Source: Deltaproteobacteria bacterium
GTDB lineage: Bacteria > Myxococcota_A > Polyangia > Polyangiales > JADJMO01
Assembly: GCA_022843175.1 (NCBI GenBank)
Contig: JALHOE010000022.1
Location: 1 to 64,000 of the forward strand
Length of the DNA: 64,000 nt
Direction: 5' to 3'
The notes beneath the pieces are model-generated. The model searched no databases. It saw only the letters and a program-made list of their open reading frames with translations, and had not been told where the DNA came from. The position numbers and the translations under genes are program-made. This document shows positions 51,760 through 63,090 of the stretch, piece by piece. Every line of letters starts with the position of its first letter. Positions within the stretch are counted from its first letter, which is position 1.

Positions 51760-53298
51760 TCAGTTGCCGATGACCAGGCGGTACTTCGTGCAGGTCGCGG
51801 CCGCGGTGCCGGCCTTGTAGGTGACCTTCACGTAGACGACCGCGTTCTGGGTGCTGCCGAGGAGGATGGGCGTCCAGTTCGCGTCGCCGTACTTGCCCTT
51901 GGTGAGGACGAGGCCGTCGTAGTAGCGGTCCCAGTCCTGACGGCCGATCGCCGTGCCGCCCGCGCCGCAGCTCGGCGCCGCGCCGGAGCCGCACACGTTC
52001 TGCATCACCTGGAACTCGAGCGGCGGCGTGGTGCCGTCGACCATCTCGAGCTTGATGCGCGGGTGCGCGGTGACGTTGCTGCGCGCGTCGACGAAGGTGA
52101 TCTTGTACCAGTGCTCGCCGGTGAGCGAGGGCAGGTTGTTCTCCTCGTTGCGCGAGACGCCGACCGCGAAGGTGAAGAGGTCCTTGCCGGGGCAGGCGTT
52201 GGCGACCGCGGACGCGGCGCACTCGCAGCCGTTGGACGGGTCGCCGTCGGTGTCGGCGTAGCCGACCGCGCAGTTCTTGATCTTGCAGAGGCCGCCGGCG
52301 CACTCGGTGGTGCTCACGTTGGTGCCGGGGGGGCACATCGCGGCGGGCGCGCCGTTGTCGGGCGTGCCGTCGCAGTCGTCGTCGCGGCCGTTGCAGCTCT
52401 CGACGCCGGCCGGCTTCGGAGCGCAGGTCTGCGGGACGCCGCCGATGCACTTGGACACGAAGTTGATGCACTCGCCGACGCCGCACGCCTCGATGCCGAG
52501 GTCCTTCGGGATGCAGACGCCCGGCGCGCCGCTGACGCAGCCCGGCGCCGTGTTGGCGCAGACGCCGCTGCCGCAGGTGACGTCGGCGATGCCGTCGTCG
52601 ACCGTGCCGTCGCAGTCGTCGTCCTTGCCGTTGCAGATCTCGGTGGTGGGCATCTTCGGCGTGCAGACGCCCGGCATGCCGCCCGAGCACGCGCTCACGG
52701 TGACCTTGCACTCGCCGACGCCGCAGGTGTCGGTGGGGAAGCCGTTGTCGATGTTGCCGTCGCAGTCGTTGTCCTTGCCGTCGCAGACCTCGACCCCGGG
52801 GGCCTTGGGCGTACACGTCTTCGGTGAGCCGTCGACGCAGTTCTTCTGCTTGACGGTGCACTCGCCCTTGCCGCACTCGGTCTCGCCGAGGTCTTCGTCG
52901 ATCGTGCCGTCGCAGTCGTCGTCCTTGCCGTTGCAGACCTCGACGCCCGGATCCTTCGGCTTGCAGGTGTTGGGCACGCCCGCGTCGCTGCACGCGGGCA
53001 TGGTGACCGTGCACTCGCCGACGCCGCAGGAGATGGTGAGGCCCTTGGCGGGATCGCAGCCGCCGCCATCGCCGCCGCTCGAATCGCCCGCCATGCCGGT
53101 GTCGGTCACCGTGCTGTCGACGGACGTGTCCGAGCCGCCGCCGGTGTCGGCGCCCGTCTCGTCGACGACGACGGCACCCGTGTCGATGCCGTCGAGCGGC
53201 GGAACGTTTGCGTTTTCGGACGCGCCCTCGGCGCAGCCAACCCCCGTCACCGCGAGGATCGCGAGAACGCCGGAGAACCGATACGAACGACCCGCCAT
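51760..53298 (-). CDS. secreted MopE-like (putative metal-binding repeat) protein
   Basis: Multiple EVCNGKDDDCDGTIDE / EVCDGKDNDCDGNIDNG motifs; lipobox-like AVTGVGCAEG. Confidence 0.85.
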   Translation of the reverse strand: MAGRSYRFSGVLAILAVTGVGCAEGASENANVPPLDGIDTGAVVVDETGADTGGGSDTSVDSTVTDTGMAGDSSGGDGGGCDPAKGLTISCGVGECTVTMPACSDAGVPNTCKPKDPGVEVCNGKDDDCDGTIDEDLGETECGKGECTVKQKNCVDGSPKTCTPKAPGVEVCDGKDNDCDGNIDNGFPTDTCGVGECKVTVSACSGGMPGVCTPKMPTTEICNGKDDDCDGTVDDGIADVTCGSGVCANTAPGCVSGAPGVCIPKDLGIEACGVGECINFVSKCIGGVPQTCAPKPAGVESCNGRDDDCDGTPDNGAPAAMCPPGTNVSTTECAGGLCKIKNCAVGYADTDGDPSNGCECAASAVANACPGKDLFTFAVGVSRNEENNLPSLTGEHWYKITFVDARSNVTAHPRIKLEMVDGTTPPLEFQVMQNVCGSGAAPSCGAGGTAIGRQDWDRYYDGLVLTKGKYGDANWTPILLGSTQNAVVYVKVTYKAGTAAATCTKYRLVIGN

Positions 53299-53508: not shown

Positions 53509-54024
53509 ATGTCCAGCGACGCGTCCCGACGTGAAGTCCTCAAAGTGGTCGGCGCTGGCGCGTCCGGCCTTGCCCTCGCCACCGTGGTTTCGCGACAGCC
53601 GGCCGAGTTGCCGGTCGCTGCGCGCGCAGCCGCTGTCGAACCGGCCGTCGCGCCGCCGGCGCCGTTCCTCGCGGATCTGGTCGGAAAGCACCTCGGCTCC
53701 TATCGCGTGCACGCCGTCGGCGCGCTCGAGCGCGGTGGAATCCCCGTGGTCCTCGCCACCGCAGCGGGTCAGCACTTCCGCGTCGACGTCCTGCGCGTCG
53801 ATCCGTCGGACGGCACGGCTGGCATCGGGGTAGCGGGAGCCGTCTCGGTGTACCTGCGCAACGGCGGCGACGGCAACACGGCGACCGACGAAGAGCAGGG
53901 TCTCGGCGCAATGGCGCTCGCAGAGGAGCTCCTCCGCCGCGATCGCGAGGGTCGCAAGCCGCCCTCCGCGCTGCTGACGCGCGGCGAGCGCCGAGCGCTC
54001 GACGCAGTGCTCGAGACGTCCTGA
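53509..54024 (+). CDS. Tat-signal-type small exported protein
   Basis: MSSDASRREVLKVVGAGASGLALATVVS (SRRxVLK + hydrophobic); stop 6 nt before the next gene. Confidence 0.7.
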   Translation: MSSDASRREVLKVVGAGASGLALATVVSRQPAELPVAARAAAVEPAVAPPAPFLADLVGKHLGSYRVHAVGALERGGIPVVLATAAGQHFRVDVLRVDPSDGTAGIGVAGAVSVYLRNGGDGNTATDEEQGLGAMALAEELLRRDREGRKPPSALLTRGERRALDAVLETS

Positions 54025-54030
54025 GGCCAC

Positions 54031-55092
54031 GTGAGCGCAGTCCAACGCGCGACCGTTCGTCTCGGGCTCGCGTGTGACAACGAGTGCGTCTTCTGCGGCC
54101 AGTCGGGCGTGGAGGGCGACCGCGAGCCCGCGCCGATGGACGTCGTGCAGCGCGCGCTCGAGGCAGCGCGCGTGGGCCACGACGAGGTCACGTTGGTGGG
54201 CGGCGAGCCCACGCTGCACCCCGAGCTTCCCGCGGTCATCGAGCACGCGCGCGCGCTCGGCTTTCGCGCCATTGGGCTCCAGACGAACGGACGGCGCCTC
54301 GCACCCTCCGCCGTTGAGCTCCTGCAGCGCGCAGGGCTGACCGACGTCCACCTGTCCATCCACGGCGGCAGCGCCGCGGCCCACGATTATCACACCGGCG
54401 TGCCGGGCAGCTTCGTCTCCGTGGCCCTCGCCCTCGCGGCCGCCCGCGCGGCACGCCTGCCGGTCGTCGTCACCACGGTGCTCACCCGCTCGAACGCGCG
54501 CGGGCTGACCGAGGTCGCCCGCTGGCTCGCTGCGCGCGGCGCGAACGCGTGGTGCATCGCGGTCCCGCGCACGCGCGGCCGCGCCGCCGAGCTCTTCGAT
54601 CGGGTCGTGCCGCGCCTCGGCGTCGCGATGCCGTTCGCCCTGCACGCGGTCCAGACCGCGGAGTCGTTGCGGCTGCCCACGTTCGTGCGTGGCGCTCCGC
54701 TGTGCGTGCTCGGGCCCTTCGCGCGCGTTGCGATCGCCGACGACTCGCGCGCCCACGGCGAGGCCTGCAACGCGTGCCCCGCGCGCGCCGCGTGCCCGGG
54801 CGTCGAGCCCGAATACCTCGCGCGGTTCGCGGGCGACGAGCTCTCGCCGCGTGAGCCGATCGCGGCGAGCCCCGATGCGCGGCTCGTGCGGATGTTCGTC
54901 GGCTCGGGCGAGGTCGCGCCGCCACGCTCGTCGCCGATCGCGGAGTCGCCCGCGCGCGCGCGCGTCGCGCTGCCGATGGCGGGGAAGGTCCGGCCGGCGC
55001 ACGCCGAGGTGCCGCGGGCCGTCGAGAAGAAGACCGGCGCCGCCCTGCGCGAGCTGTTCAAGGACCTCTACAACGACGAGCCGAGGGACTGA
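54031..55092 (+). CDS. radical SAM protein (putative peptide maturase) with C-terminal Cys cluster
   Basis: RLGLACDNECVFCGQSG (CxxxCxxC), VTLVGGEPTLHPE, C-term CNACPARAACPG. Confidence 0.85.
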   Translation: MSAVQRATVRLGLACDNECVFCGQSGVEGDREPAPMDVVQRALEAARVGHDEVTLVGGEPTLHPELPAVIEHARALGFRAIGLQTNGRRLAPSAVELLQRAGLTDVHLSIHGGSAAAHDYHTGVPGSFVSVALALAAARAARLPVVVTTVLTRSNARGLTEVARWLAARGANAWCIAVPRTRGRAAELFDRVVPRLGVAMPFALHAVQTAESLRLPTFVRGAPLCVLGPFARVAIADDSRAHGEACNACPARAACPGVEPEYLARFAGDELSPREPIAASPDARLVRMFVGSGEVAPPRSSPIAESPARARVALPMAGKVRPAHAEVPRAVEKKTGAALRELFKDLYNDEPRD

Positions 55093-56030
55093 TGGCGAAC
55101 ATCGGGTACATGCAGATCGTCCGTCACTGCAATCAGTACTGCCGGTTCTGCTCGAACCCGTCGTCGGGCTACATGCTCGACCTCGACACCGCGAAGCGCG
55201 AGATCGACGACTTCGCGGCCCGCGGCTACTTCGGCGTCATCCTCACGGGGGGCGAGCCGTCGCTGTCGGATCTCATCCCCGAGATCACGCGCTACGCCGT
55301 CGCCAACGGGCTTCACGTGCGGATGATCACCAACGGCTCGCGGCTGGGCACCGACCCCGAGCTCGCGCAGCAATACGCCGACGCGGGGCTTCGCCACTTC
55401 CACGTGAGCATCCACTCCTGCCGCGAGGAGCTCGAGGACTTCCTCACCGGCGTGAAGGGCAGCCACACCCTCGCCATGCTCGCGCTCGAGAAGCTCGGCG
55501 CCGCGGGCGTCACGGTGAATATCAACACGGTGATCAACAAGTTCAACGCGGACCACCTCGACGAGAACGTGAAGGTGTTCACGACGCGGTTCCCGTTCCT
55601 CCGCCACTTCGTGTGGAACAACCTCGATCCGTCGATGGGCCGCGCCGAGACCAACCGCGACACCGCGCATCGCCTCGCGGACTTCGAGCTCTCGTTGGCG
55701 CGCGCAATGCGCTACCTGAGCAAGACGGGCCGCACCTTCCGCGTGGAGCGCGTGCCGCTCTGCTACATGACCGAGTTCGCGCACTGCTCCACCGAGACGC
55801 GCAAAATCGTCAAGGGCGAGGAGCGCATCGTGCACTTCCTCGACGAGAAGGGCACCGTGCGACAGACCGACTTCCGCCACCCCAAGGCGGAGAGCTGCAA
55901 GCACTGCTCGCTCAACGACGTGTGCGGCGGGCTCTTCGAGCTCGGCGAGCACTACGACCTCGGCGAGCTGCACCCGGTCTTCGTCTCGAAGGACGATATC
56001 GTGCGCAAGGTGCTGGCCGAGGCCGACTAG
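55092..56030 (+). CDS. radical SAM protein (putative peptide maturase) with C-terminal Cys cluster
   Basis: IVRHCNQYCRFCSNPSSG (CxxxCxxC), VILTGGEPSLSD, C-term ESCKHCSLNDVCGGLF; TGATG overlap with upstream. Confidence 0.87.
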   Translation: MANIGYMQIVRHCNQYCRFCSNPSSGYMLDLDTAKREIDDFAARGYFGVILTGGEPSLSDLIPEITRYAVANGLHVRMITNGSRLGTDPELAQQYADAGLRHFHVSIHSCREELEDFLTGVKGSHTLAMLALEKLGAAGVTVNINTVINKFNADHLDENVKVFTTRFPFLRHFVWNNLDPSMGRAETNRDTAHRLADFELSLARAMRYLSKTGRTFRVERVPLCYMTEFAHCSTETRKIVKGEERIVHFLDEKGTVRQTDFRHPKAESCKHCSLNDVCGGLFELGEHYDLGELHPVFVSKDDIVRKVLAEAD

Positions 56031-56039
56031 GCCGGTTCG

Positions 56040-56354
56040 TTACCAGCTGCCGTGGCTGCCGTGCGAGCCGTGGCTGCCGTGCGAGCCGTGGCTGCCGTGC
56101 GAGCCGTGGCTACCGTGCGAGCCGTGGCTGCCGTGCGAGCCGTGGCTGCCGTGCGAGCCGTGGCTGCCGTGCGAGCCGTGGCTGCCGTGCGAGCAGTGCT
56201 GCCCGAAGAACTTCGCATCGCTCCCCGGACCAGTGCCGGCGCGGGCAGACGCGTCGAGCGCGTCCTTCGAGATGCGACGCTCGGTCCTCGACAGCATGCC
56301 CTCTGCGTCACGCTTGAAGGTCGGCAGGTCGTCGTCCCGCTCTTCCTCGGCCAT
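56040..56354 (-). CDS. His-Xaa-Ser repeat RiPP precursor: 52-aa leader then HCS-(HGS)16-W
   Basis: 104-aa ORF MAEEERDDDLPTFKRDAEGMLSRTERRISKDALDASARAGTGPGSDAKFFGQ-HCS(HGS)16W; directly downstream of and same strand as HxsB/HxsD-like genes. Confidence 0.88.
   Translation of the reverse strand: MAEEERDDDLPTFKRDAEGMLSRTERRISKDALDASARAGTGPGSDAKFFGQHCSHGSHGSHGSHGSHGSHGSHGSHGSHGSHGSHGSHGSHGSHGSHGSHGSW
56046..56198 (-). repeat. 17 x 9-bp HxS triplet repeat, mostly an 18-bp unit alternating AGC and TCG serine codons
   Basis: Read directly from the sequence. Confidence 0.97.
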
Positions 56355-56432: not shown

Positions 56433-57923
56433 CTAGACCGCGCAAGACTGTAGGAAGTGTGTGCGATCTCGGACCGTCGTCCACTTTTTGAAGGTCTCCA
56501 GGGTGGCCGGGTCGCCCTCGCCGAGCTTCTCGAACAGGAAATCCTGGATGCCCTTGTGGACTGCGCACAATGTGCTTTCGCGCATTCGGCCGAAAATCGT
56601 GCCCTGGCTCTTGTGATTATGAACCGGGCACACACCGCAATACGGCTGGTAGGTGCAGTTCACGCAGTCGGGCTGGGCCTCGAGGTTCGAGGCGATGGCC
56701 AGGGCGCGGACGGTCTCGTGGCCCATCAGGTCGCGGTACGAGGTGGTCTCGACGTCGCCGATGAGGAACGTGCTGTCCCCCATCTCGTGGAGCATGCGGC
56801 CCTCGTCGCAGGTGAAGACCTTGCCGTCGTAGTTGTAGGCGATCTGGCCGATGCCCGCGCCGCACGGGTTGCGGATGTCGAGGAAGTTCGGGTCCTCGCC
56901 GCCGAGGATCTTCGTGAGGAAGATCGCCGCGAAGCGCTCGAGGATCTGCACGCCCTGCTTGTTCAGCTCGAGCATGTACTCGACCGCGCTCGTGTAGAAG
57001 TGCATGTACTCCTTGCGCGGGTACTCGATGCGATGACCGGTCTTGTCGGCGAAGCCGAACGGATCGACGGGGCGTAGGAACAACGCCTTGCAGCCGAGGC
57101 TCACGTAGGTGTCGACGATGGCCTTCCACTGGGGGAGCGCCTCGCGCGTCGTCGTGAGCAGCGCCTCGACGTGATAGAGCGTCGGGTCGAGGCCGATCCG
57201 CTCGTATTCCTGGTTGATTCGCTTGATCCAGTAGGTCGCCTTCTGGTGCGCCGACGCCTGCGGCAGCTTGCGCTGCTTGTCGTGGATGTGCTCCGGGCCG
57301 TCGATGCTGGTGCAGATCTGCACCTTGTTCTTCACGAGGTACTCGAGCTTCTCGTCGTCCATCAGCGAGAGGTTCGACACCATGGTGAACTCGAGCTGTT
57401 TGCCGACCTTCTTGTTGGCCTCGAGCGCGTACTCGATGATGTGCTTGACCACCCCGAAGTTCACCAGCGGCTCGCCGCCCTGGAACTCGATGGTGACGTT
57501 GGGGTTGGTCGTCGCCAGGATCTTGTCGACCGTCTTCTCGGCGAGCTCCTTGGTGAGGTCGGTGTGCACCGCGTCCATGTTGGCGCGCGACGCGTGGCAG
57601 TAGACGCAGGTCTCGTTGCAGCGCAGCGTGACGACGATGATGTGCAGGTTCGGCCCGTACGAGAGGAAGCTCTTGCGGGCTTGGATGCGCTCCACCATGC
57701 GCTCCTGGTTCTCGGCGCCGCGCACGAAGTTGCGCTCCGCGAGACGCTTGTAGAGCTCGGACTCGCGCCCGATGGAGCCCTCGGCGAAGGCGCGGAACTC
57801 GTCGGGCTGGAGGAGCAGGAAGTTGCCCTCGGTGTTGGTGATGAGCACGCGCTTGCCCACGGTGCGGTGCTTGAACGGAAGCGCGAACGAGGTACTCGGC
57901 TTGCGGATTTGCAGGAGGTTCAT
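56433..57923 (-). CDS. hxsB: His-Xaa-Ser system radical SAM maturase HxsB-like
   Basis: N-term LPFKHRTVGKRVLITNTEGNFLLLQPDEFRAF; GPNLHIIVVTLRCNETCVYCHASR; VTIEFQGGEPLVNF; SPASM-like C-term DCVNCTYQPYCGVCPVHNH. Confidence 0.88.
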   Translation of the reverse strand: MNLLQIRKPSTSFALPFKHRTVGKRVLITNTEGNFLLLQPDEFRAFAEGSIGRESELYKRLAERNFVRGAENQERMVERIQARKSFLSYGPNLHIIVVTLRCNETCVYCHASRANMDAVHTDLTKELAEKTVDKILATTNPNVTIEFQGGEPLVNFGVVKHIIEYALEANKKVGKQLEFTMVSNLSLMDDEKLEYLVKNKVQICTSIDGPEHIHDKQRKLPQASAHQKATYWIKRINQEYERIGLDPTLYHVEALLTTTREALPQWKAIVDTYVSLGCKALFLRPVDPFGFADKTGHRIEYPRKEYMHFYTSAVEYMLELNKQGVQILERFAAIFLTKILGGEDPNFLDIRNPCGAGIGQIAYNYDGKVFTCDEGRMLHEMGDSTFLIGDVETTSYRDLMGHETVRALAIASNLEAQPDCVNCTYQPYCGVCPVHNHKSQGTIFGRMRESTLCAVHKGIQDFLFEKLGEGDPATLETFKKWTTVRDRTHFLQSCAV

Positions 57924-58144
57924 GACGACATCGCTCCGCCGGCCTTGATGGTGAGGCCCAGGGCAAAGTTGGCGAGCTCGTGGGCGATCCGCTGCTCGCG
58001 GTCCGCGTCACGGCCCGAGATTCGGACGACCAAGTGGGTGGGCTCTGCGGCGCGCTCGAACGACGCGTGGCGCGTGAAGGTCTCGACCGCCTCGTCGACG
58101 GCCTTCTCGGCGTAGAGCGCGCGGTGGAAACGGAGCTCGATCAC
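57920..58144 (-). CDS. small HxsD-like protein (74 aa)
   Basis: VIELRFHRALYAEKAVDEAVETFTRHASFERAAEPTHLVVRISGRDADREQRIAHELANFALGLTIKAGG; 4-bp overlaps on both sides. Confidence 0.7.
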   Translation of the reverse strand: MIELRFHRALYAEKAVDEAVETFTRHASFERAAEPTHLVVRISGRDADREQRIAHELANFALGLTIKAGGAMSS

Positions 58145-58653
58145 TTGGCTGCCCCGCCGTCGGCCTTGGCTGGCTCCTCGGCGGGCGCCGCGCCCTCTTT
58201 CTTCTTCTTGGCGTACTTCTCCTCCCACGACATCGCGATGCCGAGCGGGTCGTCGAAGGCCTCTTCGGAGAAGTCGAACGCCTCGAGCTCGTCGAGCGAG
58301 GGGGCTCCGCGGGCGCCCGAGAGCGCGCGGGCCGTGACGGATTCGATGGTGGCGCGGCTGTCGCGCGCGATCTGGGCGCGCCAGGCGCAGGACAAGAGCT
58401 CGTTGGCGAACTCGCCGACGGTCTCGCGCGCGAGATCGCCCTCGAGCTTGGCCTTCTTGCCCGAGAGCGTGACTCGGATACGGCCCTCGCTCGGCTTGTC
58501 GAGGAAGACATAACAGCGATCGATGAAGACGTACGCCGCGGCGTACACCGCCTCGAGGGGGTAGAGCGTCTCGTCGACTTGCAGCGACATCGCGCCGCGG
58601 TCGAGCTCCACCTCGACGAGGTCACCGGGAATACCGTCGAAGGTTACGGGCAT
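58141..58653 (-). CDS. hxsD: His-Xaa-Ser system protein HxsD-like
   Basis: LQVDETLYPLEAVYAAAYVFIDRCYVFLDKPSEGRIRVTLSGKK...VGEFANELLSCAWRAQIARDSRATIESVTARAL (position of the HxsD LLNDYxLRE-type motif). Confidence 0.8.
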   Translation of the reverse strand: MPVTFDGIPGDLVEVELDRGAMSLQVDETLYPLEAVYAAAYVFIDRCYVFLDKPSEGRIRVTLSGKKAKLEGDLARETVGEFANELLSCAWRAQIARDSRATIESVTARALSGARGAPSLDELEAFDFSEEAFDDPLGIAMSWEEKYAKKKKEGAAPAEEPAKADGGAAK

Positions 58654-58725: not shown

Positions 58726-59928
58726 ATGCTGAAAACCGTGGTCGGGACCGCCGCGGTGCAATCGCCCGACGACATCACGCTCCCTCGATCGGGCTCCACC
58801 ACGGCCCGTTCGGTACTGTCGAGAGCGATCGGTCGACTGCTGTCCGATCTCCGTCTCGTCCTCGGCAGGCCGACCGCCGACCCGGTGCTGCGGCGCGCGG
58901 TGGGGTCGCTCGCCGCCGCGCTCTCCGCGACACCCGATCGTCAGGCGGCCCTCACGAGCGCGCTGCGGCGTCCCAACGTCTCGGCGCTGCTTCGCTGCGC
59001 GCGGGGCGACGCCGATCCGCGGCTGGTCGTCGAGCTCGTGGCGACGCTCGCCGTCGAGCTCGCCGTGCTCGGCGCACTCCGCGCGGTCGTGCGGATCGAC
59101 CAGCCACCGGCGCGGGTGGTGTCGTTGAGCGGCCGGTTCGTCGTCGAGCTCGCCGACGCGACCGCGCTCCTCGTCGGGCCGGACTTCCTCGAGATCGAGC
59201 GTCCGACCGGGCGAGACCGCACCGCCCTCCCGCCGACCGGCGCGTTCGTGCGCACGCCGTTTCACCCGATCCGCGGCTCGATCGTCCTCGCGCTCGAGGA
59301 CAACAACCCGCTCTCGATGTACGAGGCGCACCCCAAGAAGGCCGGCAACCGCATCGATCTCGGCGGCCAACCGGAGTCTGCGTGGTGCGACTCGCTCGGC
59401 GACGCCCTCGACCGCATCGAGCGCTACCTGCCCGAGCTGCGTGCCGAGCACGACCTGTTCGTGCAGCAGTTCGTGCCGGTGGGCTACGACGCCGAGGCGC
59501 ACCTCTCCGCGTCGTATCGCGAGGCGATCGGCACCATCTACCTCACCCTTCATCCGCAGGCGATGACGATGACCGAGGCCGTGGTCCACGAGTTCTCGCA
59601 CAACAAGATCAACGCGCTGTTCGAGATCGACGACGTGCTCCACAACGCCTACTCGCCGCTCTACAAATCGCCGGTGCGCCCCGATCCGCGGCCGCTGCAC
59701 GGCATCCTGCTCGCCGTGCACGCGTTCGTGCCGGTCGCGCGGCTCTACGAGGCGATGCTCGCGGCGGACGATCCGCTCACGCGGCACCCGAGCTTTCGCG
59801 GGCGGTTCGCGCAGATCGTCGAGGGCAACCGCGAGGGGACGGCGGTGCTGCTCGAGCACGCGCAGCCCACGGCGATCGGGCGCGGGGTGCTCGACGAGCT
59901 CGCGCGCTGGGACGCGCACTTCCGCTGA
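58726..59928 (+). CDS. HExxH motif-containing putative peptide modification protein
   Basis: MTMTEAVVHEFSHNKINALFEIDDVLHNAYSPLYKSPVRPDPRPLHGILLAVHAFVPVARLYEAM; divergent from hxsD-like gene. Confidence 0.85.
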   Translation: MLKTVVGTAAVQSPDDITLPRSGSTTARSVLSRAIGRLLSDLRLVLGRPTADPVLRRAVGSLAAALSATPDRQAALTSALRRPNVSALLRCARGDADPRLVVELVATLAVELAVLGALRAVVRIDQPPARVVSLSGRFVVELADATALLVGPDFLEIERPTGRDRTALPPTGAFVRTPFHPIRGSIVLALEDNNPLSMYEAHPKKAGNRIDLGGQPESAWCDSLGDALDRIERYLPELRAEHDLFVQQFVPVGYDAEAHLSASYREAIGTIYLTLHPQAMTMTEAVVHEFSHNKINALFEIDDVLHNAYSPLYKSPVRPDPRPLHGILLAVHAFVPVARLYEAMLAADDPLTRHPSFRGRFAQIVEGNREGTAVLLEHAQPTAIGRGVLDELARWDAHFR

Positions 59929-59929
59929 C

Positions 59930-61528
59930 TCAACCTCGCACGGCGGACATCGCCGCGCGGACGCCCTCGACGAGCGTGGCGGGGGCGTTGGTGAGCTCGC
60001 GGTCGAGGCGGTAGCCGCCGCGGACCCGGTCTCGGTCGAGGCCGAGCGTGAGCGTGACGCCGACGCCGTCGTCGTGACGGAGCGCGATCGCCGCGTCGCG
60101 GCCGCCTGCGCCGATGGTCACGCCCTCCCACGACAGCGCCGTGTACGGTGCGCTGCCGCGCAGACGCTCGAGACAGCGGCCGATCCGCCAGTCGACGCCG
60201 TGCCGGAGCGGCCCGTGGAACGCCGCGTCGTCGCCGATGCCATGGTGAACGCGCGCGTTCGAGACCGCGCAGAGCTCTGCGAACAGGTGACGGAGCAGCT
60301 CGATCGTGGCGGCGTCGACCGTCGTCGCGCCGACGAGGTGGAGCGAGAACAGGTCGGTGCTCGCGGCGCCCGCGCCGGGGCGCGCGAGCTCGACGTCGGC
60401 CGAGCCGCCGCCCTCGCGCGCGAAGCGGACCGCGACCCGCTCGTCCCGAGTGTCGACGTGGACGTTCGCGACCGCGAACGGCGGCGGGGCCGCGTAGGCG
60501 CGGAGCGCGGCGATCAGCGGCTCGACGTGGAGGGTGAAGAGGCGCAGCTCGGGATCGACGACGCGGAGGCGCTTGGGCGTGATCGGCACGAGCTCGTCGG
60601 TGCCGTAGAACCGCTGGTAGGTGTCGAAGACGCCGCTGCAACGGCTGTCGAACACGCACTCGCGGCACGACTCGATTTTGAGCTTGTCGCGTCGCTTGAC
60701 CGCGTATTTGTCCCACGCCTCGCTGAGGTCTGCGCGCTGGTCCACCGCAACGGTGAGGGTGGTCTCGCCGTCGTGGTGGATGACCGGCGCGAGCTTCGGC
60801 GCGATGCAGTAGGGCAGGTTGCCGATGTTGACGTCGAAGCCAGCCGGGAAGCCCGCGACCATGGCCTCGAGGTGGGGGACCATGTCGCTGTAGCGCGGCA
60901 GCATCGCGCGCATCTCTTCTTCGGTGCGCACGCCGGCATCGAGCGGGCGGATCATGTCGAGGTGGAGCTGGCTCGCGCCGTAGGGGAGCAGGAGCGCGGG
61001 GAACTCGGCGACCGACTCGTAGTTCGAGCGCACGACGCACATGTTGACCGTGATGCGCTGGTTGCGCGCCCGGAGGTTCTTCATCGTTTCGACCAGTCGG
61101 TCGAACGAGCCGAGCTTCTTGGTGGTGCGGTTGTGCGCGCGGCTGTTGGCCCCCTGGAACGAGAGCCGGAAGGTGAAGTTGCCGCCGGTCTCGAGGATCT
61201 CGTCGACGAAGGAGCCGCGGGCGGTCTTCACGCCGTTGGTGAAGATCACGATCTCGTCGAACCCGAGCCCCACCGCGCCGCGCACGATGCGGAGGAACTC
61301 CGGCTGGATGGTTGGCTCGCCGCCGAGCAGCGTGACCTTGCGGATGCCGTCCCGGCGGGCGCCCTCGAGCCGCTCGAGGACCGGATCGCCCGGCACGGGG
61401 AACGCCTCGCGCTCCTCGGTGCGCTGGCCGCTGACGCAGAACACGCAACGGTTGTTGCACATGTGACCGAGCTGGATCTCGAGCTGTCGGTCGGGTTCCA
61501 CGGCGGCTTCAGTGTAGCGGAACCCCAA
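59930..61528 (-). CDS. radical SAM protein with C-terminal Cys cluster and extra about 200-aa C-terminal domain
   Basis: IQLGHMCNNRCVFCVSGQRTEE (CxxxCxxC), VTLLGGEPTIQPE, ESCRECVFDSRCSGVF; start TTG 61528 or GTG 61501. Confidence 0.87.
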   Translation of the reverse strand: MGFRYTEAAVEPDRQLEIQLGHMCNNRCVFCVSGQRTEEREAFPVPGDPVLERLEGARRDGIRKVTLLGGEPTIQPEFLRIVRGAVGLGFDEIVIFTNGVKTARGSFVDEILETGGNFTFRLSFQGANSRAHNRTTKKLGSFDRLVETMKNLRARNQRITVNMCVVRSNYESVAEFPALLLPYGASQLHLDMIRPLDAGVRTEEEMRAMLPRYSDMVPHLEAMVAGFPAGFDVNIGNLPYCIAPKLAPVIHHDGETTLTVAVDQRADLSEAWDKYAVKRRDKLKIESCRECVFDSRCSGVFDTYQRFYGTDELVPITPKRLRVVDPELRLFTLHVEPLIAALRAYAAPPPFAVANVHVDTRDERVAVRFAREGGGSADVELARPGAGAASTDLFSLHLVGATTVDAATIELLRHLFAELCAVSNARVHHGIGDDAAFHGPLRHGVDWRIGRCLERLRGSAPYTALSWEGVTIGAGGRDAAIALRHDDGVGVTLTLGLDRDRVRGGYRLDRELTNAPATLVEGVRAAMSAVRG

Positions 61529-61558: not shown

Positions 61559-61900
61559 ATGACTCCCGAGGAATCCGACGCCCTCGCCGGGACGCTGACC
61601 GAGGTGATCACGCCCGCGCTCGCCGAGATCCTGCCCGACGGCTGGCAGTTCGAGAACGTGAAGACGCGCTCGTTGATGATGACGCACCTGCCGGTGCTCT
61701 CGCTCAAGCACGGCGCCGAGACGCTCTGCTTCATCATCAGCCCAACCGACCCGGCGTCGCCCGCCTTCAAGCGGAGCAAGCACTACGACCTCACCTACTT
61801 CTCCGAGGACGTCCCCGACGCGAAGCAGGGGCAGATCTATCGGCGCGATCGCGAGGTCATCGAGCGCGTGGCGGCCTGGCTGCGCCGGTGGGACGTGTAA
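61559..61900 (+). CDS. hypothetical protein, 113 aa, coupled to the oxygenase gene
   Basis: ATG 61559; stop TAA overlaps next ATG (TAATG at 61898-61902). Confidence 0.75.
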   Translation: MTPEESDALAGTLTEVITPALAEILPDGWQFENVKTRSLMMTHLPVLSLKHGAETLCFIISPTDPASPAFKRSKHYDLTYFSEDVPDAKQGQIYRRDREVIERVAAWLRRWDV

Positions 61901-63090
61901 TGCGCTCGGTCGAGGGCTTCCTCCGCGAGTTCGGCCTCGCGCCGGGCACCACGTTCTCGGGGTTCGCGGTCAAGAGCGGCACGCTGCGCCAGGGCCGGCT
62001 CGAGCTCGAGCTCGCCGATCCGAACGGCGGGGTGATCTCGGCGCAGATCAGCCAACGCGATCCGAACGCAGAGGCCTTTCTGCGCACCGCGAGCTTCGAT
62101 CTCGCGCACGGCGCCGTCCCCGATCAGCGGATGCCGGCTGTGCTCGCCATGCTCGCGGAGCTGGGACGGGTGCTCGGCGAGCACGATCGCGGTGACGCCG
62201 CGCTGCCGCGGGAGTGGAGCGGCGAGCCGACGGCGCGGGACGTTCGCGACTTCGTCTTCGTCGACGTCGATGCCTCCGACCTCGAGGCGTACTCCGACGC
62301 GATGCACGCGATGTTCGAACGCCGGCTCGACGTGATGATCATTCGCAACGTGTTCTCTCCCGAGCAGATGGCGAGGGTCACCGCATCGCTCGAGGCGTCA
62401 TCCGGTCGGTTCGCGTTCCGTGACAACACGCAGACCGACACGCGCGATCACGCGCAGCCGTACAACCTCGGGATGGTGCTCATCCCCACCCGTGAGCACC
62501 CGAACGGCGCTCCCCTCGACGAGTATTTCGCTACGGCGCGGAGCTTTCGCGAGACCTCGCGGGAGCTGTTTGCGAGCGCGGGCGACCGTGATTTCGAGAC
62601 TCGCGTGAGCGAGGTGCTCCGCGGGGTCGCAGGCGGTCGTCCGGTCGGAGTGCCCGCCGGCCCGGCCGGCGAGAGCTACACGCCAGCGACGATTCGCGCG
62701 ATCCCGCCGGGCGCGGAGCTCGCGGTCCACGTGGGCAACTACTTCAAGGACTGCGACGCCTACCGTCACCTGATGACCCTGGTCGATACGTCCGACCAGC
62801 TGAGTTACTTCATCCCGCTCGCGACCCCGGAGGCCGGCGGCGAGATCGAGGTGTACTCGCTGGAGTGGTTCCACCGGCCGCTCACGAAAGCCGGTGCGCT
62901 CGACGTCGAGCTCATCGCGAAGCAGGCGCCCTCGGTGAAATACCGGCCCGGCGCCGGCGACATGTTCCTCTTCGACGGCGGCTACTGGTATCACCGCGTC
63001 TGCCCGGTCGTCGGCGCGCGCAATCGCTGGACGATCGGCGGCTTCGTCACGATCGCGAAGGATCACCGCCAGTTCTACTACTGGAGCTAG
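61900..63090 (+). CDS. 2-oxoglutarate/Fe(II)-dependent oxygenase-like protein
   Basis: AVHVGNYFKDCDAYRHLMTLVD...LSYFIPLATPEAGGEIEVYSLEW...PGAGDMFLFDGGYWYHRVCPVVGARNRWTIGGFVT (H-x-E...H...R pattern). Confidence 0.72.
   Translation: MRSVEGFLREFGLAPGTTFSGFAVKSGTLRQGRLELELADPNGGVISAQISQRDPNAEAFLRTASFDLAHGAVPDQRMPAVLAMLAELGRVLGEHDRGDAALPREWSGEPTARDVRDFVFVDVDASDLEAYSDAMHAMFERRLDVMIIRNVFSPEQMARVTASLEASSGRFAFRDNTQTDTRDHAQPYNLGMVLIPTREHPNGAPLDEYFATARSFRETSRELFASAGDRDFETRVSEVLRGVAGGRPVGVPAGPAGESYTPATIRAIPPGAELAVHVGNYFKDCDAYRHLMTLVDTSDQLSYFIPLATPEAGGEIEVYSLEWFHRPLTKAGALDVELIAKQAPSVKYRPGAGDMFLFDGGYWYHRVCPVVGARNRWTIGGFVTIAKDHRQFYYWS

Follow-up and report, generated by a model that had tools for sequence, protein, structure and literature searches.

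PMC9062424 cites Haft and Basu as having proposed the Hxs system, which is named in that paper as a putative pathway, and no report of an Hxs product was found in the literature searched. HxsA4, the precursor, is a known bacterial peptide family with unexplored chemistry, and the Hxs pathway, a radical SAM system, is widespread and chemically blank. In the known three-residue cyclophanes an aromatic residue at position i is bonded to the C-beta of residue i+2, and the pairs joined are Phe-Ser by MscB, His-Ala by HaaB and His-Arg by YhhB, the last two via His C2 (PMC11002830). In the Chl pathway, which is made of ChlB and ChlH, ChlBH places hydroxyl groups on the C-beta of His and Asp and needs a preinstalled cyclophane, and a run of Gln is hydroxylated by PflC (PMC12636437). 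The TVG poly-cyclopropylglycine peptide (TvgA/TvgB/TvgC) has a short repeat core, on which a radical SAM enzyme acts once per repeat, and an aKG-dependent partner (PMC9062424, PMC11002830). Bufferin precursors carry signal peptides, and bufferins and oxazolins have signal-peptide RiPP precursors acting in the periplasm (PMC12452194).

The window, which is the whole stretch of 64,000 nucleotides analysed, encodes a precursor, HxsB, HxsD and an HxsD-like protein that score over the curated NCBIfam cut-offs and are encoded in the same order in relatives. It has three divergent HxsC/HxsC4-like enzymes, none of them over the HxsC cut-off, and a HExxH hydroxylase and a Tat protein are proposed here, from co-occurrence, as extra partners. 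The triceptide systems (XncB, OscB, MscB, HaaB and YhhB) share with this locus the radical SAM enzymes and the aromatic-x-residue spacing, with precedents for Ser at i+2 (MscB) and for His at i (HaaB), but the window enzymes are outside those families by score and the core is made of 17 tandem motifs. The Chl pathway also combines a radical SAM enzyme with an aKG-HExxH beta-hydroxylase, and the HExxH and R-D-RP regions are conserved with respect to 8s5f, whereas the Hxs HExxH protein is encoded by a separate and often unlinked gene and the precursor is different. The TVG system, alike in the features given above, has the repeat Thr-Val-Gly-Gly and another maturase, and TvgC belongs to another family (IPR018724). 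The precursors of bufferins and oxazolins can be compared with the signal-type HxsA4 leaders of relatives of the window, but they are processed by MNIO enzymes with Cys chemistry, and the window leader has no signal.

NCBIfam already contains the family with its core partners, and the present analysis adds, with no claim to priority, the constraint on His, Ser and Trp, the conserved enzyme C_b, and the HExxH and TatX partners. HxsA4 is, as a whole, probably a RiPP that is modified triplet by triplet and exported. Its HGS run is very probably altered by the neighbouring radical SAM enzymes, and the evidence suggests that an enzyme often adds oxygen to it as well, before its delivery to the cell envelope.

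The hxsA4 gene and the variation of its core

The hxsA4 gene (56040..56354, minus strand) starts with an ATG at 56354, has a stop codon that ends at 56040 and encodes 104 amino acids. The leader, MAEEERDDDLPTFKRDAEGMLSRTERRISKDALDASARAGTGPGSDAKFFGQ, comprises residues 1-52, of which 12 are acidic and 9 basic, and is followed by a core of one HCS triplet, 16 HGS triplets and a terminal Trp. The sequence, coordinates, strand, 52-residue leader and HCS-(HGS)16-W core given in the preliminary description were all confirmed. A Shine-Dalgarno-like GGAGG is found 6 bases 5' of the start codon (TTGGAGGACGACG-ATG). The gene is located immediately downstream of hxsD, the hxsD-like gene and hxsB, with a gap of 78 bp between the hxsB stop and its own start on the same strand, and 9 bp separate its 3' end from the HxsC-like gene C_b, which is convergent with it. 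The core-coding array (56040..56198, minus strand), formed by 17 His-x-Ser triplets, the Trp codon and the stop, has an 18-bp repeat unit with the Ser codons AGC and TCG in turn, which are more than one base apart. The whole protein scores 90.3 bits against NCBIfam NF038313, exceeding the cut-off of 55, and has the family pattern of a His-Xaa-Ser triplet core, a non-repetitive leader and a Trp end; a profile search of the source genome gave no second HxsA4 match. Judged by these features, the hxsA4 ORF is a real gene and a member of the HxsA4 family, not an orphan novelty.

Among the 379 Myxococcota genomes surveyed, HxsA4 is over the cut-off in 115 and HxsB in 127, and many of the 80 named HxsB loci encode an H[C/A/G/M]S-(HGS)n-W peptide. 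The phylum was assigned from the named relatives, all of them myxobacteria; Plesiocystis pacifica SIR-1, which can be cultivated in the laboratory, is one carrier of the system (locus L068). Core variation was read from 35 arrays, those of the window and its relatives, which were picked by the H.S pattern and in which breaks of His or Ser are visible only as interruptions. The middle residue of their 524 triplets is Gly in 480, Cys in 30, Ala in 11, Ser in two and Met in one. Few arrays are interrupted at His or Ser (by RGS in L077 and by LGS and QGS in L139), the last triplet is HGQ in some lineages, and the Trp end is present in all arrays but a few, which run on or meet the contig end. Inside the arrays 418 codon differences are synonymous, whereas random single changes would be expected to give about 112 of this kind; of the 44 non-synonymous differences, about 30 are at the first-triplet Cys codon. 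Cys is common in the first triplet, yet Ala, Gly or Met takes its place in relatives; this weakens the earlier suggestion that the lone Cys is an anchor or a metal ligand, and an essential anchor role was rejected.

Because the middle residue is tolerant, the His and Ser interruptions are rare and the Trp end is kept, His, Ser and Trp are the constrained parts of the core, while the first-triplet Cys is dispensable. The same observations, with the synonymous codon changes, support the division of the peptide into leader and core. This points to the His/Ser pair within each triplet as the likely substrate; neither the Cys nor the middle residue is essential. A precursor with a recognition leader and a homogeneous core beside HxsB, as first described, has homologues in more than 100 genomes. 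That description had also made its reading depend on HxS-type homologues next to HxsB, and HxsA4 does lie beside HxsB in relatives. While its precursor reading stands, it missed the NCBIfam identity of HxsA4, the frequency of the family in Myxococcota, the conserved Trp, and the three additional radical SAM genes and the peptide hydroxylase.

The variation among relatives also bears on two explanations without modification chemistry. The (Gly-Ser-His)n run scores 37 bits against the collagen model of Pfam (PF01391, cut-off 27.2) and could be read as an unmodified, collagen-like structural repeat, but this is very improbable, since Gly is replaced in 44 of the 524 triplets of relatives whereas His and Ser stay, which is the reverse of collagen. 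In addition, proline is absent, the link with HxsB is strict and the HxsA4 profile score is far higher. The collagen-like structure was rejected on this pattern, in which Gly is not kept at every third position. A spurious ORF produced by repeat DNA would agree with the further open frames across the array, but we give it almost no credit in view of the synonymous pattern in the HGS frame, the use of both AGC and TCG for Ser, the start site, and the conserved leader and Trp end; the synonymous pattern and the conservation across species led to its rejection.

Array length ranges from 7 to about 42 triplets (L127, L086, L023 and L139). The triplets of L139 (G181) are degenerate, with LGS, HRS and QGS, and perhaps belong to a decaying array. 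Two HxsA4 genes, between a few hundred bases and about 1 kb apart, are found in L020 (G376:C99), L028 (G188:C2) and L023 (G280:C119). Roughly half of the 80 HxsB loci (L063, L065-L067, L069, L070, L090-L107, L110-L116 and others) lack an HxS array in the stretch examined, and several of these array-less loci retain HxsD, HxsB and C_b at about 50-62% identity. A comparison of shared small ORFs, aimed at the precursors of these loci, was swamped by antisense and frame-shifted ORFs. L116 and L118 have two HxsB-type genes less than 10 kb apart, one of those in L116, at the edge of the stretch, matching only partially.

Enzymes of the locus and candidate triplet chemistry

The radical SAM/SPASM maturase HxsB (56433..57923, minus strand) scores 567.5 bits against TIGR03978, which has a cut-off of 370. 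The small HxsD-like protein (57920..58228, minus strand) scores 69 bits against NF038315 (cut-off 41), and the shorter form that starts at 58144 is better by codon use. HxsD (58141..58653, minus strand) scores 57.8 bits against TIGR03976 (cut-off 50), and the order of hxsD, the hxsD-like gene, hxsB and hxsA4 is the same in relatives. The AF2 model of HxsD, with a pLDDT of 77, has a predicted alpha/beta fold (beta-alpha-beta-beta-alpha), whose best PDB match is the RNA polymerase subunit K with an E-value of 8e-3; Foldseek gives a weak likeness to this subunit and to Pcc1. A role of HxsD as a PqqD-type winged helix-turn-helix recognition element is not supported by the predicted fold, which is alpha/beta instead, and no other function can be named from the Foldseek matches, which are too weak. 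In the proposed pathway the leader would dock on HxsB/HxsD, a step that is only assumed, since HxsD is not predicted to be a winged helix.

Three HxsC-like radical SAM enzymes are encoded around this core. C_b (55092..56030, plus strand) has the best score against HxsC (TIGR03977) among the ten neighbouring genes tested, 85.5 bits, and none of them is over the cut-off of 267.9. C_a (54031..55092, plus strand), which is HxsC/HxsC4-like and stays beside the TatX gene in relatives, scores 116.6 bits against NF038332, under its cut-off of 500. The HxsC4-like C_c (59930..61528, minus strand), which has a long C-terminal extension and a start at 61501 by codon use, scores 87 bits against the same model, also under the cut-off; its relatives are near full length with 55-65% identity in L045, L046 and L077 and partial with 70% identity at the end of L087. 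In five loci or genomes, the identity of C_b to the window protein is 90, 82, 79, 79 and 81%, and that of HxsB is 85, 66, 72, 66 and 63%. C_b is, by these identities, conserved more strongly than any other protein of the locus, from which we infer that it touches the constrained core, and it is the first enzyme to probe.

The aKG-HExxH-type peptide beta-hydroxylase (58726..59928, plus strand) scores 84.3 bits against TIGR04267 (cut-off 40), and its residues H288, E289 and H292 are invariant in the alignment. It matches 22nu and ChlH (8s5f) in the PDB, with the HExxH motif and the R-D-RP stretch kept. Multiple hydroxylation of the His run is chemically reasonable by analogy, because ChlBH acts on His and Asp and PflC on a run of Gln. 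A WelO5-like 2OG-Fe(II) carrier-independent halogenase/hydroxylase (61900-63090, plus strand; PF22814, 249.7 bits) adjoins the locus. None of the 80 HxsB loci has a relative of it at the threshold of the search, and its membership of the pathway is not supported; it may be independent or a lineage-specific tailoring enzyme.

In the proposed pathway, HxsB and the HxsC-like radical SAM enzymes would modify the His/Ser pair of every triplet once; the simplest chemistry would be bonding of His(i) to Ser(i+2), oxidation or epimerisation. The HExxH enzyme would next hydroxylate the His (or the Ser) along the run. A His-x-Ser ring would be a cross of the Phe-Ser and the His-Ala/His-Arg types, and His-Ser i/i+2 cyclophanes are plausible by this analogy. 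In its full form, the cyclophane explanation has the His ring carbon joined to the Ser C-beta in every triplet, giving 16-17 rings, with the His beta-hydroxylated by the HExxH enzyme. The i/i+2 spacing fits it, as do the Phe-Ser C-beta bond of MscB and the His C2-C-beta bonds of HaaB and YhhB (PMC11002830), the dependence of ChlBH hydroxylation on a preinstalled cyclophane (PMC12636437), the PDB search match of HxsB to the ChlB radical SAM domain (9gm3), and the tolerance of the middle residue where His and Ser hardly vary.

This full form is nevertheless doubtful. Among the best 25 families per protein, HxsB is far under the cut-off of the YhhB cyclophane maturase model (57.8 bits against 445), and neither HxsB nor the HxsC-like enzymes are over the cut-off of a characterised cyclophane family. 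The closest solved relatives of HxsB are 5wgg, which we take to be CteB, a thioether former, and anSME (4k37), so that they include enzymes that form a thioether and a formylglycine, and the presence of three HxsC-like enzymes hints at more than a single reaction. The i/i+2 cyclophane proposed at first thus keeps its precedents for His at i and Ser at i+2 and the ChlH-related HExxH protein alongside, but it is not matched by the family scores of HxsB and the HxsC-like enzymes.

Epimerisation and oxidation have to be weighed for the same reasons, as no enzyme passes as a member of a cyclophane family and HxsB is nearer to CteB and anSME. The radical SAM enzymes would then form D-Ser or D-His, or oxidise Ser to the aldehyde, as happens in anaerobic sulfatase maturation, with no cross-links, and the His run would be a plain metal-binding stretch. 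The alignment of HxsB to anSME from the radical SAM domain through the SPASM region, the weak match of C_b to the known peptide epimerase YydG and the His-dense core agree with this explanation, which is possible, if somewhat unlikely. Matches to anSME and YydG are common to many SPASM/Twitch enzymes and do not discriminate, and metal binding alone leaves the constrained Ser of each triplet unexplained.

Often unlinked candidate partners, leader types and proposed export

Triplet-wise modification of HxsA4 involves, in the proposed pathway, proteins whose genes are often scattered over the genome. Among the 113 HxsA4 genomes listed, counted with no regard to kinship, 110 have HxsB (38.5 expected, P 7.6e-71), 106 have C_b (profile A2; 37 expected) and 85 have a member of the HExxH subfamily (profile A3; 30 expected). 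C_b is present in 97 of the 100 genomes that have the HExxH protein. TatX (53509..54024, plus strand), a small protein with a conserved domain and an invariant twin-arginine pair in the alignments (A5/A6), has no fold match among solved structures, the best E-value being 0.59; it occurs in 67 genomes, 65 of which have HxsB and 58 HxsA4 (20 expected). After collapse to families, which were tallied by hand from the tables and number at least 60, HxsA4 is paired with HxsB in 24 families (11.7 expected), with C_b in 23 (11.2 expected) and with the HExxH protein in 17 (7.9 expected, P 3e-7).

The distance between HxsA4 and HxsB is at most 3 kb in 56 of the 59 cases on the same contig. In G341, which has two contigs, the precursor and HxsB are at 13.01 Mb, the HExxH gene is at 12.64 Mb and C_b is at 0.53 Mb. 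The Hxs pathway thus appears to be wider than the operon, with C_b, HExxH and TatX as often unlinked partners, and HExxH and TatX are often missed from an operon view because they are unlinked in many genomes. The HExxH enzyme is missing in 28 of the 113 HxsA4 genomes, where the core is unchanged, so hydroxylation seems unneeded for core conservation.

Two types of HxsA4 leader precede the same core. The majority, including that of the window, are soluble, and leaders with a signal-like segment were found in 18 sampled genomes from six families, for example ITRGQAAAIGSFLLMAGTSGHALA, and TRRDFVETSASLLLLGAGASLLGG in L143. The two classes were separated by a pattern picked after viewing the leaders, which replaced a hydropathy threshold that separated them poorly. 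TatX is present in none of the 18 signal-type genomes and in 40 of the 52 soluble-leader genomes, a contrast between related lineages with post hoc classes, which alone was not selected for directly. The HExxH protein is present in none of the 18 and in 48 of the 52, in a chosen sample for which 20 leaders were fetched as HExxH-less. These contrasts are a lead, given the post hoc pattern and the shared ancestry.

The simplest reading of the signal-like segments and the Tat motif is that the product reaches the envelope by one of two routes. Delivery would depend on the signal-like segment of the leader in other lineages, or on the help of a separate Tat protein in the lineage of the window, and the modified poly-His rod could bind metal in the envelope. 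None of the genes was assigned as a transporter or a peptidase. In the most elaborate version of the pathway, which as a whole is improbable, the product would be a poly-cyclophane metal-binding polymer common in Myxococcota: about 17 His-Ser three-residue rings in tandem would form a rod, the aKG-HExxH enzyme would beta-hydroxylate the His, a dedicated Tat protein would take the product to the envelope, and the genes would be spread over unlinked loci. The chemistry and the destination of the Hxs product are made directly testable by these candidate substrates and partners.

A Cys-rich protein with repeated VCNGKDDDCDG-type motifs is also encoded beside the locus (51760-53298, minus strand). 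Similar proteins, which may be merely common in myxobacteria, are found near the Hxs loci L040, L043, L050 and L057.
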